From positions 1 through 32,092 of the forward strand of contig JAGQIK010000695.1 of assembly GCA_020431405.1 (NCBI GenBank): DNA of 32,092 nucleotides, written 5' to 3'. Within the stretch, counting starts at the first letter, position 1, and each line of letters opens with the position of its first letter. The stretch is from Myxococcales bacterium. Its GTDB lineage: Bacteria; Myxococcota_A; Polyangia; GCA-2747355. This document shows positions 754 to 9,769 of this stretch, in pieces. The notes beneath the pieces are model-generated. The model saw nothing but the letters and a program-made list of their open reading frames with translations, did no database searches and was not told where the DNA came from. The translations under genes and the position numbers were made by a program.

Positions 754-2115
<1,362 letters not shown>

Positions 2116-2152: not shown

Positions 2153-2369
2153 GGGCCTCGGACCTCGGGCCTCGGGCCTCGGGCCTCGGGCCTCGGGATC
2201 GATCGCGAGCGCTCAGCACGCTTCGAGGCAGCTCAGGCACCCGCGACGAAGCGAAGCGAGGCGTCGGCGGCCATGCTCGAACGTCTCGAGCGCATCTGCG
2301 AAGCGTGCAAGGCGCTCTCCGTGCGCCCCTGGGCCCGAGGCCGGGGGCCTGAGGCCCGAGGCCCGACTG
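2153..2369. repeat. Imperfect inverted-repeat element with CCTCGGG heptamer arrays
   Basis: This fills most of the gap between two convergent genes. The left arm holds six tandem heptamers (one CCTCGGA and five CCTCGGG, 2156-2197). The right arm (2331-2367) carries the complement, CCCGAGG, in degraded copies. Inside these, GAGCGC-N3-GCACGCTTCG (2207-2225) pairs exactly with CGAAGCGTGC-N3-GCGCTC (2299-2317). The whole could fold into one long interrupted hairpin around a loop of about 70 nt. It has no open reading frame and no transposase. It could be a dispersed palindromic (REP/MITE-like) repeat or act as a two-way transcription barrier; the sequence alone does not decide. Confidence 0.7.
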
Positions 2370-2384
2370 CCCGGACTAGGCGCT

Positions 2385-3203
2385 CTACTCCTCGCGCTGC
2401 GGCACGAAGACCACCAGGGCCGTGATGTTGTCGCGCCCACCGGCTTCGTAGGCGGCGTCCACCAGCGCGTCGGCCGCGGCACCAGCCGTGGCGGCGTGCA
2501 GGTGTTTGGCGATCGCTTCGTCGTCGAGCCGCTCGAGCAGGCCGTCGGTGCACAGCAGATAGCGGTCGCCCGCCGCGATCTCGACGCTGCGCACCTCGGG
2601 ATCTGCGGCGCCGTCCATGCCGATGGCGCGCGTGATGACGTTGCTCAGCGGGAACTCCTGCGGCGGGGGCAGGTCGGCGCCGCAGGCCTCCATCTCGGCG
2701 TAGAGCGAGTGGTCGCGCGTCAGCCGCTCGAGCGTGCCGTCGCGCAGGCGGTAGATGCGGCTGTCGCCGACGTGCGCCAACACGGCGGTACCCTCGCGCA
2801 GCACCAGCGCCGCCACGGTGGCGCCCATACGCGAAAGGCGGCCGACGCGCGCGCGGCTGACGCGTGCATGCGCCAGGCGCACGGCGACGGCGATGAGGTT
2901 CTCGTCGAACGTGCGGCCCTTGTCGAGCGCGAACGGCCACGTCATGTCCGAGTCGTCCTCGTTGCGGCGAAAGAACTCGGCCAGCGTGTCGACCACCAGC
3001 GCCGCCGCGATCTCGCCGCCCTCGTAGCCGCCCATGCCATCGGCGACGGCAAACAACCCGAGCTGCGGCTCGCAATGAAAGTCGTCCTCGTTGCGCTTGC
3101 GCCGCCCGATGTGCGTGCGCGCCGCGCTCTGCGGCACGCTCTTGGCGTCGATGATGATCGGGCTGCTGTCGGTGCTGGGAAGCTGAGTCTCGTTCGTCGT
3201 CAT
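2385..3203 (-). CDS. PP2C-family serine/threonine protein phosphatase
   Basis: A 272-residue PPM/PP2C phosphatase that removes phosphate from Ser/Thr using two metal ions. All main motifs are present: RNED (37-40), DGMGG (55-59) with the metal-binding Asp, the VGDSRIYRL strand, TDGL near residue 220 and the final DN (258-259). There are no membrane segments and no sensor domain, so it is a soluble, stand-alone catalytic domain of bacterial length with a disordered N-terminal stretch of about 28 residues. The ATG is preceded by a good GAGGAGAG ribosome-binding sequence. It converges on the FHA/sigma54 activator, and its upstream region has a sigma54-type promoter and paired repeats. It may therefore act on the kinase or substrate that the FHA protein reads; that link is inference. 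Confidence 0.95.
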   Translation of the reverse strand: MTTNETQLPSTDSSPIIIDAKSVPQSAARTHIGRRKRNEDDFHCEPQLGLFAVADGMGGYEGGEIAAALVVDTLAEFFRRNEDDSDMTWPFALDKGRTFDENLIAVAVRLAHARVSRARVGRLSRMGATVAALVLREGTAVLAHVGDSRIYRLRDGTLERLTRDHSLYAEMEACGADLPPPQEFPLSNVITRAIGMDGAADPEVRSVEIAAGDRYLLCTDGLLERLDDEAIAKHLHAATAGAAADALVDAAYEAGGRDNITALVVFVPQREE

Positions 3204-3375: not shown

Positions 3376-4995
3376 TCAGGGGGCGCAGGGTGAGACGCCG
3401 CTGGCGTTGCTCTGCTGGCGCAGGGTGGCGAGTGGGAGGGTGTTGCCGTCGCGCAGCGTGACCGACGTCGCGCTGGCCGCTGGGCAGGCGGCGCCGAGTA
3501 GGCGGTGGCCCGTGGGAGAGCCACTGCCGCCGATGACGTAGATCGCGAGGCGGCTGCTGTCGCTGCGGCGCGCGACGTCTTCGAGCCGCATCTGCACGCA
3601 GCCGGTGTCGCCGTTGGGCAACGCGCGCTGGCCGAGGCGGCGGTGCAGCTCGTCGATGCCGTCGCTGGCGCTCACCGGGTCGAGGCCGTAGAGCACCTCG
3701 ATGCCGTCAGGCACGCCGTCGCCATCGGTGTCGGCGCGCGCCGGCTCGGTGCCGAGCAGCCGCTCCTCGCAGTCGTTGAGCCCGTCGGCGTCGAGGTCGG
3801 CGAGGCGCTCGTCGGCGCTGCAGAGCGCGCCGCTGGCGCTGCCCAGGCGTCGCGCCACGCCGTCGCCGATGCCGTCGTTGTTGCTGTCGCGGCGCCGCGG
3901 GTCGGTGCCGCGCCGCAGCTCGTCGTCGTCGCCGACGCCGTCGGCGTCGCTGTCGACGACCAGCCGCCCTTGATCGTCGAGCGCGAGGGCGTGGTCGACG
4001 GCGAGCAGCGCCGTTTCGCGCACGTCGCCGGCGGCGTCGGGGGGTGTGAGCTCGAAGCGCGTGAGGTCGAGCTCGCTGGCGCTGCTGTAGCGCGTCACGG
4101 TGCCGGCCGAGCGCGTGGCTTGTGCGAGCTGCGCCAACCGCCCCTTGGCGGCGGGGTCACCATCGGGGCCCTGCATGTGGGCGATGCGCAGGTCGAAGCG
4201 GCTGCCGCGCGACTCGATCTGATAGGAGAGCGCCTGCATGGCGTAGTAGAGCGACGCCAGCGTGTTGCGCGCCTTGCACTGTTCGAGGCTGCTCAGCTGC
4301 GTCTCGAGCAGCGCGCAGTCGACGCCGCCAAGCCCGAGCCCAGCGCACCACATCGAGCGCGGCAGATTGCAGACGACGTCGTAGGGATGCGGCGCGGGTG
4401 TCGCCGGGAAGACAGGCTCGCAGCCGGTGACGCACTGCGGCGAGACCCCACCGTCGGTGATGATGTGCACGATGTAGCGCGTGCGCGCGCGCTGCGCTGC
4501 GGGCAGCGCTTCGATGTCGCGCACCAGCAGCGTGCGCGCGGCGCCGATGGCGCCTTCGAGATCGTCCCAGCCTTGATAGGGCCCTGGATCGAGCGTCGCC
4601 AGCAGGCGTGGGGCGACGAAGCCGATCCACGAGAGGCCGGGGTTGTCGCTCGCAGCTCCGCCGTAGACGATCACCGACATGGCCACGTCGCCCGACGTCT
4701 CGTGGGCGGCGGCGAGCGTCTTGATCGCGGTGGTCCAAAGGTCGCCCGGGTCATTGACCAGCGCCGACTGCGAGCGATCGAGCAGCAACAGCAGCCGCAC
4801 GGGCGCTGCGCCCGAAGTGCTCGTGCCAGCTCCCGCTGGACAGTATTCGCCGAGCACCGAGACGCGTGTGACGTTGGCCGGCCTCGTCGCGTCGCCGGCG
4901 CCATCGCCTGCGGCGTCGAGTCGGCTCGCGCCGCTGTCGCTGCACGCCGCCAGCAGCGACAGCGCCAGCGCGGCGATGGGGACGACGGCGCGCAT
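3376..4995 (-). CDS. Secreted lipoprotein with vWA domain and thrombospondin type 3-like Ca-binding repeats
   Basis: From the ATG at 4995 the product is 539 residues. It has a short signal peptide ending in the lipobox LAAC (Cys18), so it is probably lipid-anchored in the outer envelope. A von Willebrand factor A-type fold follows, with a MIDAS-like DRSQS (73-77) after a hydrophobic strand. The C-terminal part carries several Asp-rich repeats such as DSDADGVGDDDE, DLDADGLNDCEE and DTDGDGVPDGIE, typical of thrombospondin type 3 calcium-binding repeats. There are several Cys pairs, fitting an oxidising compartment. An in-frame ATG at 5028 would add 11 residues and overlap the sirtuin start; neither start has a clear ribosome-binding site, and 4995 gives the more normal lipoprotein signal. 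Similar vWA/TSP3 lipoproteins are frequent in myxobacteria. The function is unknown; adhesion or ligand binding is a guess. Confidence 0.85.
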   Translation of the reverse strand: MRAVVPIAALALSLLAACSDSGASRLDAAGDGAGDATRPANVTRVSVLGEYCPAGAGTSTSGAAPVRLLLLLDRSQSALVNDPGDLWTTAIKTLAAAHETSGDVAMSVIVYGGAASDNPGLSWIGFVAPRLLATLDPGPYQGWDDLEGAIGAARTLLVRDIEALPAAQRARTRYIVHIITDGGVSPQCVTGCEPVFPATPAPHPYDVVCNLPRSMWCAGLGLGGVDCALLETQLSSLEQCKARNTLASLYYAMQALSYQIESRGSRFDLRIAHMQGPDGDPAAKGRLAQLAQATRSAGTVTRYSSASELDLTRFELTPPDAAGDVRETALLAVDHALALDDQGRLVVDSDADGVGDDDELRRGTDPRRRDSNNDGIGDGVARRLGSASGALCSADERLADLDADGLNDCEERLLGTEPARADTDGDGVPDGIEVLYGLDPVSASDGIDELHRRLGQRALPNGDTGCVQMRLEDVARRSDSSRLAIYVIGGSGSPTGHRLLGAACPAASATSVTLRDGNTLPLATLRQQSNASGVSPCAP

Positions 4996-5021: not shown

Positions 5022-5792
5022 GTGTCATTCGAGCTACCGCGAGAGCTGGTGCATCGACTGCGTGCCGCGCGCTCGGTGGGCGCCATCACCGGCGCGGGCA
5101 TCTCCGCGGAGTCGGGGATTCGCCCCTATCGCGGCAAGGGCGGCATCTACGACGACCCGAGCGAAGGCGAGGCCACCGTCGAGGCCGTCAGCGCGCCGAC
5201 GCTCTACAGCGATCCGGACCGCACCTGGCGTGCCATCGCCGCCATCGCGCGCGGCGCGGCGGGCGCACGCCCCAACGCCGCCCACGAGGCCCTCGTCGCC
5301 ATCGAGAACGCCGTCGAGCGTTTCGCGCTGCTCACCCAGAACGTCGACGGGTTGCATCAAGCCGCTGGCAGCAAGGCGATCATCGACATTCATGGCAGCG
5401 TCGACGCCACGATCTGCATGCGCTGCGACACGCGCGCCCCGCTCGACGTCGCGAGCATCGCGACGCTCGAGCGCGCTCCTCGCTGCGCGCAGTGCAGTAT
5501 CGGCGTGCTGCGACCCGACGTGGTGCTCTTCGGCGAGATGTTGCCGATGGACAAGGTCGCTCGCATGCAGCGCGAGTTTCACGAAAACGTCCCCGACGTC
5601 GTGATCATCGCCGGCACGAGCGCGCTCTTTCCCTACATCGCAGAGCCGCTGCTGGTGGCACGCAAGGCGGGCAAGCTGACCATCGAGGTCAACCTCGAGC
5701 CCACCGACGTGACCGTCATCGCCGAGTTTTCGTTCCGCGAGCGGGCAGGCGCGGTCCTTCCGGCCATCGCCGAAGCGATCAACCTTCGATAA
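5022..5792 (+). CDS. Sirtuin, NAD-dependent protein deacylase (Sir2 family)
   Basis: A 256-residue single-domain sirtuin. The Rossmann-fold signature GAGISAESG (24-32), the QNVD motif (106-109), the catalytic His in IHGS (His124) and the zinc ribbon Cys132/Cys135 with Cys155/Cys158 are all present. So are the RPDVVLFGE stretch and the GTS near the C terminus. The enzyme uses NAD to remove acyl groups from lysines, giving nicotinamide and O-acyl-ADP-ribose; it is cytoplasmic, with no signal peptide. The GTG start gives the usual sirtuin N terminus. It is divergent from the lipoprotein gene and followed after 10 bp by the beta-helix gene on the same strand. No acetyltransferase or acetyl-CoA synthetase, the common sirtuin partners, is nearby, so the target is unknown. 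CobB is the common bacterial name but orthology is not shown. Confidence 0.96.
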   Translation: MSFELPRELVHRLRAARSVGAITGAGISAESGIRPYRGKGGIYDDPSEGEATVEAVSAPTLYSDPDRTWRAIAAIARGAAGARPNAAHEALVAIENAVERFALLTQNVDGLHQAAGSKAIIDIHGSVDATICMRCDTRAPLDVASIATLERAPRCAQCSIGVLRPDVVLFGEMLPMDKVARMQREFHENVPDVVIIAGTSALFPYIAEPLLVARKAGKLTIEVNLEPTDVTVIAEFSFRERAGAVLPAIAEAINLR

Positions 5793-8563: not shown

Positions 8564-9769
8564 ATGGCACGCACTTCTCGTCAGCGCCCGTCGGCCCACC
8601 TCGTCCTCGAGGATGGACGTGTTTTCGATGGGCGAGCGCTCGGTGCCGAGCAGCGCGAGATCTTCGGCGAAGCGATCTTCAACACCAGCATGACGGGCTA
8701 TCAGGAGATCGTTAGCGATCCCTCCTACTGCGGCCAGCTGATCACCTTCACAGCGCCCCAGATCGGCAACTACGGCGTCTGCGCGACGGACGACCAGGCG
8801 CCCCGGCCCCATGCCGCCGGCGTGATCGTGCGCGAGCTGTCGCCGATGACGTCGAGCTGGCGCGCGGAGGGCGACTTCGAGGCCTGGCTCGAGCGCTGCG
8901 GCATCGGCGGTATCTGCGAGGTGGACACACGCGCGCTGACCCGACACATCCGGTCGGCGGGCGCCATGCGCGCCGGGATCTTCCGCGCGGATCTCCCCCC
9001 AGACGCCGTCGAGCGCGTGCGCGCGCAGCCCAAGATGGAGGGGCTCAACCTCGCCGAGGTCGTCTCGACGCGCGAGCCGTACAGCGCGGAGGCAGGTCGC
9101 GGCGCCGACGCCGGCCCCAGCGATCGCGTGATCAACGCGCCGCGCCCACGCCGCGTGGCGCTGCTCGACTTCGGCGTCAAGCGCGGCATCGTGCAGTGCC
9201 TAACCCGGCGCGGCGTCGACGTCACGGTGATGCCCGCGTCGAGCGACGCGGCGGCGGTGCGTGCGGCCAAACCCGACGGCGTGTTGCTCTCCAACGGTCC
9301 GGGCGATCCCGCGCCGGTGCAGCGCGGCATCGAGACCGCGCGCGCCTTGCTCGGCGAGCTGCCGCTGTTCGGCATCTGCTTGGGACATCAGATCCTGGCG
9401 CTGGCGCTCGGCGCCGAGACGTACAAGATGCGCTTCGGCCACCACGGTGGAAACCACCCGGTGCGCGACGAGCGCAGCGGCGAGGTCTGGATCACGGCGC
9501 AGAACCACGGTTTCGCGGTGCGCGCCGAGTCGCTGCCGGCGTCGGTGCAGCGCACGCACGTCAGCCTCTACGACGGGTCGCTGGAGGGCTTTGCCGACGA
9601 GGGCCGCCGCATCACCGCGGTGCAGTTTCACCCCGAAGCCTGTCCGGGGCCCTCCGACGCGCGCGGCGTCTTCGACCGCTTTGTCGGGCAGCTCGAGCCT
9701 GGGCTAGGGCCCGGCCCGAGCGGCAATGGCAACGGCAACGGCAACGGCAACGGGAAAAGCGCGCGCTGA
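8564..9769 (+). CDS. carA: Carbamoyl-phosphate synthase, small (glutaminase) subunit
   Basis: A 401-residue CarA. The N-terminal domain carries the family stretches FNTSMTGYQEIVSDPSY and GNYGVC. The class I glutamine amidotransferase domain has LLSNGPGDP, the nucleophile Cys272 in GICLGH, and His356/Glu358 in FHPE. It releases ammonia from glutamine and passes it through the tunnel to CarB for making carbamoyl phosphate for arginine and pyrimidines. The ATG at 8564 was preferred to an in-frame GTG at 8531, as it gives the usual CarA N terminus. carB starts 3 bp after the stop. An oddity is the C terminus: after the normal end near FDRFVGQL it has a flexible GPGPSG plus Gly-Asn repeat tail. 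Confidence 0.98.
   Translation: MARTSRQRPSAHLVLEDGRVFDGRALGAEQREIFGEAIFNTSMTGYQEIVSDPSYCGQLITFTAPQIGNYGVCATDDQAPRPHAAGVIVRELSPMTSSWRAEGDFEAWLERCGIGGICEVDTRALTRHIRSAGAMRAGIFRADLPPDAVERVRAQPKMEGLNLAEVVSTREPYSAEAGRGADAGPSDRVINAPRPRRVALLDFGVKRGIVQCLTRRGVDVTVMPASSDAAAVRAAKPDGVLLSNGPGDPAPVQRGIETARALLGELPLFGICLGHQILALALGAETYKMRFGHHGGNHPVRDERSGEVWITAQNHGFAVRAESLPASVQRTHVSLYDGSLEGFADEGRRITAVQFHPEACPGPSDARGVFDRFVGQLEPGLGPGPSGNGNGNGNGNGKSAR
9722..9751 (+). repeat. GGCAAC hexanucleotide microsatellite in the carA 3' end
   Basis: One GGCAAT and four GGCAAC units in tandem, followed by a related GGGAAA, encode the alternating Gly-Asn tail of CarA. A six-base unit keeps the frame when copies are gained or lost, so the tail length could vary between strains without harming the protein. 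Confidence 0.85.

Follow-up and report, generated by a model that had tools for sequence, protein, structure and literature searches.

The palindromic stretch between two convergent genes of the Myxococcales bacterium GCA_020431405.1 is made up of two facing copies of one dispersed element family. The tandem heptamer arrays that define the family are a real, ordered and lineage-specific repeat of gene 3′ ends. We infer, at a probability of roughly 0.5, that they are REP-like 3′-end elements that limit transcriptional read-through or protect RNA ends.

A structured palindrome between convergent genes

The window, i.e., the whole stretch of DNA analyzed (32,092 nt; contig JAGQIK010000695.1 of the above assembly, whose 11.2 Mb genome is hereafter G000), features the palindromic stretch at positions 2153-2369. 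A first-pass annotation of this DNA had placed it between convergent genes, and this is borne out: the gene on the plus strand (754..2115) ends at 2115 and codes for a protein with an FHA domain and a sigma-54 activator (Pfam PF00158, E = 2.8e-62; PF00498, E = 1.1e-13), while the gene on the minus strand (2385..3203) ends at 2385 and codes for a PP2C-type protein phosphatase (PF13672, E = 9.4e-22). Viral contigs contained no relative of this phosphatase and only two stray matches to the array.

The six tandem heptamers described for the left side are found at 2156..2197 on the plus strand as (CCTCGG[AG])6, i.e., CCTCGGA, a unit with one mismatch, followed by five perfect copies of CCTCGGG; this array is sense to the gene ending at 2115 and begins 40 nt past its stop codon. 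Their degraded complement on the right is equally present as GGCCCGAGGCCGGGGGCCTGAGGCCCGAGGCCCGA at 2332..2366 on the minus strand, sense to the gene ending at 2385 and 18 nt past its stop. Between the two arrays lie two copies of a motif, termed A below, one 3′ of the left array (2199..2225, plus strand; nhmmer E = 7.5e-5) and one 3′ of the right array (2296..2322, minus strand; E = 2.1e-4), with both E-values coming from a profile seeded with these very copies. The inner inverted match with equal spacing in both arms, also part of the first description, is exact: the left core GAGCGC-TCA-GCACGCTTCG (2207-2225, plus strand) has its exact inverse in the right core CGAAGCGTGC-AAG-GCGCTC (2299-2317), with a 3-nt spacer in each. 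The two layers are thus nested as claimed, but the symmetry of the nesting is inexact, since the array-to-core distance calculated from the coordinates is 9 nt on the left and 14 nt on the right.

That the arrangement is unlikely by chance is supported by its folding. The RNA of 2116-2384 folds with a z-score of −6.87 on the plus strand and −6.01 on the minus strand, with none of 200 dinucleotide shuffles as good on either strand; when 2156-2366 is folded with DNA parameters, the z-score is −6.36 and again 0/200 shuffles equal it. Across the whole window, Rfam gave no matches at the gathering score. Apart from the heptamer arrays, the window's sole long run of period 5-9 is a hexamer run, (GGCAAC)4, at 9728-9753.

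A dispersed family of heptamer arrays

A genome-wide search for CCTCGGG arrays, proposed along with the first description of the stretch, recovered dispersed copies. Two tandem units (CCTCGGGx2) have 270 matches in G000, 142 and 128 on the two strands, compared to 0 for the reversed control; three units (CCTCGGGx3) have 151 matches and four (CCTCGGGx4) have 74. Rather than a lone, unconserved sequence without folding excess, what was found is a sequence with further copies in its genome, copies in related genomes and a clear excess of folding. A chance palindrome or an assembly artefact is ruled out as an explanation by the 270 versus 0 matches, the fold excess and the like arrays in three other MAGs, and its probability is negligible.

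We then read 101 stretches of G000 (1,051,558 bases), most of them picked for an array (≥2 exact units), in which 889 genes were called by a simple codon model. The 26 stretches not picked for arrays (273,178 bases) held three arrays by a looser cut-off. Segments of period 7 were intergenic in 110 cases versus coding in 5, and each of the other periods from 4 to 12 gave at most 5 intergenic segments. From 146 period-7 segments, 9 within coding calls and 10 runs of the motif B word (see below) were removed, leaving 127 arrays, one of which is the left array of the window. GGCCTCG accounts for 360 of the 535 units; positions 1, 2, 3 and 6 of the unit are conserved at ~98% or more, and position 7 varies the most (G 411, A 92, C 16, T 16). 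Measured by length, 65 of the 127 arrays have four units, with arrays of less than ~3 units falling below detection. Many arrays in G000 stand single. Further enriched intergenic words in the same 101 stretches are GCATAGAGTGACC and ACAATGACAAAACC, with 6-7 exact copies each, and parts of GACGACTGCTCCGCGGCCAGC.

Placement and orientation relative to genes

The arrays show a stark bias in their placement with respect to genes. First, in genes with a sense array within 100 nt, the median distance from stop codon to array is 6.5 nt, with 55/94 lying within 10 nt and 79/94 within 30 nt. Second, in convergent gaps 66 of 70 arrays have their G-rich strand on the coding strand of the gene end closest to them, and in tandem gaps 31/46 arrays are sense and 15/46 antisense; with the dropped segments restored, the sense counts are 69/76 and 33/50, respectively. 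The remaining arrays lie in divergent gaps (7/127) or at contig edges (4). Third, 42 of 142 convergent gaps hold an array, compared to 35/511 of the tandem and 4/142 of the divergent ones. Fourth, the array-bearing tandem gaps have a median length of 189 nt even after subtraction of the array, versus 43 nt in the others, as expected at the ends of transcription units. Finally, a crude scan of G000 for T-tract terminators found them at 5/716 gene ends without an array and at 0/97 with one; at array-bearing gene ends of two related genomes (G391 and G393, introduced below) the counts were 0/19 and 1/16. With regard to the stop codons themselves, TAG is the commonest in G000 (454/823 genes) despite a GC content of ~70%, and its share is higher in array-followed genes (71/94).

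This placement bears on whether the arrays are merely selfish or purely mutational repeats that arise by slippage and copying, are kept where they are harmless and have no function. Harmlessness alone predicts no strand, in contrast to the near-uniform sense orientation in convergent gaps; nor does it predict the preference for four units, insofar as this is visible above the detection limit.

Facing pairs and the origin of the palindrome

Among neighboring arrays at most 1.5 kb apart, 38 face each other, 0 are back-to-back and 10 point in the same direction. Of the 38 facing pairs, 31 are spaced 62-171 nt apart, and these lie in convergent (19), tandem (9) and divergent (2) gaps and at one contig edge. 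Two motifs are found repeatedly on the gene-distal side of the arrays, namely motif A (about GCGAGCGCnnTGCACGCTTCGC) and motif B (about TCGCGCCGTAGGCTCGCGCTTCGCGCTTCG). Profiles of these, searched in the stretches that had supplied their seeds and with the seeds counted among the matches, yielded, at E ≤ 0.05, 16 matches to A and 18 to B; all 16 of the former and 17 of the latter (33/34 together) follow an array in the same orientation. Such linkage in a fixed order is likewise unpredicted if the arrays are selfish or mutational repeats. By exact core, A, B and a third variant stand 3′ of 17, 12 and 5 of the 127 arrays, respectively; thus, many arrays are without a recognized motif. The inner palindrome of the window corresponds to two oppositely oriented copies of motif A.

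Could selection have favored pairing between the two arms, so that they form a single large cruciform or RNA hairpin in the gap between convergent genes? The strong folding of the whole stretch and the combination of common facing pairs with absent back-to-back ones would accord with this, as would the like facing pairs reported for Xanthomonas (PMC4692102). A permutation test lends it no support: permuted arms reach the similarity observed for arms of the same element in 564 of 10,000 permutations (31 elements), and the inner arms are less alike than permuted ones in 9,199 of 10,000 (28 elements). The frequency of single arrays also speaks against selection for pairing, which we deem very improbable. 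Same-element arms are, within error, no better matched than others, and hence the long hairpin looks like a by-product. A single nested palindrome as the unit is not supported, because its halves are opposite-orientation copies of one family whose arms show no better match within an element. One copy per gene end best accounts for the palindrome: where each of two convergent genes ends in its own copy, the copies face each other and a large palindrome forms.

Phyletic patterns and stop-codon hairpins in related genomes

CCTCGGGx3 was not found in 36 of the 38 relatives searched and matched once in each of the other two; among 377 evenly sampled genomes of the phylum it occurs in 5, including G000, with 1 to 5 matches in the other four. 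Sampled stretches of G001, G002 and G003 (283 kb) contained no period-7 arrays, with gene calling in G001 being poor (41% coding). A scan of named genomes, in which records very near G000 possibly lie outside the set searched, gave at least 76 array stretches. At least 26 of the listed stretches are from records titled Myxococcales, Kofleriaceae, Polyangiaceae or Deltaproteobacteria. Among the listed matches, three MAGs are rich in arrays by CCTCGGGx2 counts: UBA2376 (G391) with 125, F1-120-MAGs089 (G393) with 48 and Kofleriaceae MAG_26 (G392) with 31. These are mutually related, with 52-94% protein identity in the listed blastp matches, and are more distant from G000, with best listed matches of 46-60%, the listings being cut off at 45% identity. 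As for marker genes, rpoB was not found in G000, G391 or G393, and RecA is partial in G391 and G393.

The other 50 listed stretches are from outside Myxococcota and hold 51 isolated arrays without a clear place: with genes called by the model borrowed from G000, 13/51 are sense within 100 nt of a stop, 27 lie elsewhere in intergenic DNA, 10 at edges and 1 in coding sequence. This scatter is what selfish or mutational repeats might be expected to show.

In G391, the arrays lie past stop codons, like those of G000, and are sense in 12/12 convergent and 8/11 tandem cases, while the orientation is weaker in G393 (9/13 and 4/10, respectively); segments unlike CCTCGGG, excluded from these counts, number 0 and 1. 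A further feature of G391 is a hairpin adjoining the array: the 45 nt that precede the array have a folding z-score < −2 in 15/19 cases, as against 6/78 control ends. There is no such excess in G000 (11/101 vs 8/150) and no clear one in G393 (3/17 vs 2/55), and we accordingly rejected the pre-array hairpin as a general feature of the family. In 15/19 of the G391 cases, the stop codon itself lies within the array-adjoining hairpin. In ~6 of these 15, the stop stands at or beside the loop, so that the gene's final codons are matched by their reverse complement in the 3′ arm, over up to 26 pairs; most of the remainder carry the stop in the 5′ arm, and 2/15 are weak or branched folds. Long hairpins that straddle the stop immediately before the array, and whose 3′ arm is complementary to the final codons, occur, for example, at L254 5197 and 9821, L249 2840, L258 4826 and L260 4615. 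Separately, a second dispersed repeat, ~88 bp long, was seen in G391 at L247 ~4208-4301, and G391 and G392 both contain many partial copies of it; the 110 bases around it fold at −53.8 kcal/mol. This repeat was not found in the 20 Y1 loci considered below.

Gain, loss and exchange of arrays

To follow individual sites, we compared a stretch of G391 with four arrays (L254) against the orthologous DNA of G392 and G393. The arrays at 9478 and 9821 are both absent from G392 and G393, and that at 5197 has a short remnant in G392 and none in G393. At the fourth, 3171, which was not found in G392, G393 lacks the CCTCGGG array, and (GCGCACG)6 begins 8 nt past the same stop (L333 4070-4112). Period-7 arrays of other words are rare, with 0 in the samples of G391, 1 in G393 and 1 in G000, which makes this heptamer replacement notable, though it is a single case. 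A G391 gene that we read as an ABC-transporter ATPase contains an array in frame; the corresponding place in G393 is taken up by a hexamer repeat instead of an array. Sites common to relatives also exist (L253/L276 and L256/L188), and by the translations one orthologous coding-gene pair has two arrays in G393 and one in G391. G391 also has further copies, identical at up to 98-100%, of a 51-bp unit that comprises the array, AAGAA and two degenerate heptamers.

Several of these observations favor selfish or purely mutational repeats, namely the differences between orthologous sites, the near-identical recurrence of the 51-bp unit and the different heptamer behind the same stop in G393. Taken with the strand, unit-number and motif regularities noted above, which such repeats do not predict, we consider this explanation possible but somewhat unlikely. 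The stop-codon hairpins of G391, along with the heptamer change at one orthologous stop, hint at a tail-building process at gene ends: a process that recognizes gene ends would at times fold back and copy the 3′ end, and would then add heptamers on one strand, in a telomere-like fashion. Although we regard this as quite unlikely, if true, it would keep period and place while the heptamer word changes, and would have been at work separately in Xanthomonas, Nostoc and Myxococcota.

Y1 transposases and the question of mobility

The first-pass annotation had likened the stretch to a REP-like or a non-autonomous mobile element. The REP-like description holds for the distribution, as the copies are dispersed, mostly extragenic, located at gene 3′ ends and often in facing pairs. 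The second part fared worse. Elements of the REPIN/MITE type that depend on a Y1 transposase acting in trans for their movement would account for the composite unit of array and motif in many copies, for the empty sites in some relatives and for the GTAG preceding the palindromic part of motif B in 5/12 seeds; furthermore, Y1 matches are present in each of the four array-rich genomes tested (12, 10, 6 and 3). This last link was striking in ten genomes, with 0 matches in five array-free ones and two in another, G178, but faded in the larger set of 377, where Y1 matches are widespread (175/377) as opposed to the rarity of CCTCGGGx3 (5/377). Moreover, in the 20 Y1 loci examined, 18 of them from array genomes (of the 31 matches there), we found neither a Y1 gene flanked by the heptamer repeat nor any heptamer array, the best motif-profile match being one of 17 bases to motif B in L363 with E = 0.0077. 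GTAG itself is lacking in 7/12 B seeds and 17/17 A seeds. Consistent with a mobile origin, array-free orthologous sites exist in the G391-G393 comparison, but their flanks differ and no target duplication was seen by eye. Thus, while sites vary, a Y1-driven mobile element is decidedly improbable. Several Y1 (HUH) transposase-like genes of G000 (at L367, L372, L375 and L378) have in common flanking repeats of ~100-250 bp, some of them inverted, like small IS elements.

A possible role at transcript ends

By its orientation, the G-rich strand of an array is placed in the predicted transcript leaving the adjacent gene. Returning to the preferred reading of a REP-like 3′-end element, we note that a copy comprises a (GGCCTCG)n array, usually of ~4 units and, in G000, often with motif A or B after it; we propose that it would act on its own gene, at the level of the RNA or of the elongation complex. 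As a hairpin or a G-quadruplex, the structured G-rich tail would stall RNA polymerase or stop 3′ exonucleases; the transcript end would thereby be fixed, in a genome where T-tract terminators look rare, and a convergent pair would limit read-through from both sides. The two-way transcription barrier suggested earlier for the stretch is thus in agreement with the placement of the arrays, while its action on transcripts is a prediction from that placement. As to the form of the tail, the sense strand of 56/127 arrays and the antisense strand of 0 match G3x4; yet, RNAfold prefers a hairpin for the GGCCTCG unit, and 40% of permuted heptamers give an equally stable array hairpin. Counting against a 3′-end role are the small share of genes with arrays, the differences between orthologous sites, the occurrence of some arrays in coding sequence, the 7/127 divergent and 15/46 antisense tandem arrays, the lack of a hairpin excess in G000 and of a clear one in G393, the weaker orientation in G393 and the ordinary stability of the array hairpin relative to permuted heptamers.

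Comparison with known systems

REP elements have known roles in RNA 3′-end stabilization, according to PMC13289151. With REP, BIME and REPIN elements, the arrays share the existence of many short, extragenic and dispersed copies with hairpin potential at gene ends, often in inverted pairs. They differ in that their core is a tandem heptamer array rather than one imperfect palindrome. Furthermore, REP palindromes are tagged by GTAG (or CGTC) at one end, going by the title of PMC3733652, whereas GTAG is present here only in 5/12 B and in 0/17 A seeds, and no array-flanked Y1 gene was found in the loci examined. With intrinsic (Rho-independent) terminators, the G391 arrays share a GC-rich hairpin that adjoins the array behind or across the stop; unlike such terminators, they have no U-tract, with the G-rich array in its place, and in G000 there is no excess of hairpins before the array. 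The TAACTGA heptamers of Beggiatoaceae, Cyanobacteria and Bacteroidetes (MacGregor 2015, PMC4679880) are likewise dispersed, intergenic and patchy over phyla, but lie mostly just upstream of start codons and are not G-rich, in contrast to the G000 arrays past stops.

Judged by titles and abstract openings, no paper on such arrays in Myxococcota was found in the open-licence literature, and the available passages of PMC12699852 mention neither "Myxococc" nor "heptanucleotide". The closest counterparts are the heptameric repeats described by Rehm et al. 2015 (PMC4692102), GGGAATC in Xanthomonas and GGGGA(C/T)T in Nostoc, whose function was left open in that work. There, the Xanthomonas repeats are found less often than expected in the middle of transcripts, and transcript starts or stops are more frequent at them than at control repeats, an effect seen on either strand. 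By analogy, the first two points speak for a role of our arrays at transcript ends, and the last against it. Our arrays closely match these repeats in period, unit number, place, strand and facing pairs. Both have a period of seven with four units the commonest, are dispersed and mostly intergenic, carry the G-rich strand as the coding strand just past stop codons, form facing pairs on opposite strands (70 in Xcc) and vary in length between relatives.

The differences are several. GGCCTCG is not G-skewed and forms a hairpin in RNAfold, unlike GGGAATC, which forms a quadruplex there. Convergent gaps are strongly preferred in G000, while they hold 16% of the repeats in Xanthomonas. The linkage of arrays to motif A or B in G000, and to the stop-straddling hairpin in G391, sets them apart from the Rehm repeats. 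Finally, 83% of the Xcc repeats are at the same place in Xac, whereas several of the sites in the G391 group differ, and the host phylum, Myxococcota, is another.

To the known repeats the present case adds Myxococcota, with a unit that is not G-skewed and a palindrome that amounts to one copy per gene end. It also ties the arrays to places where transcription units end and, in one relative, to stop-spanning hairpins. A plain question follows: where T-tract terminators are lacking, do the arrays define the ends of transcripts? Unrelated bacteria feature different seven-base words in ~4 copies, on the same strand past stop codons and often in facing pairs.
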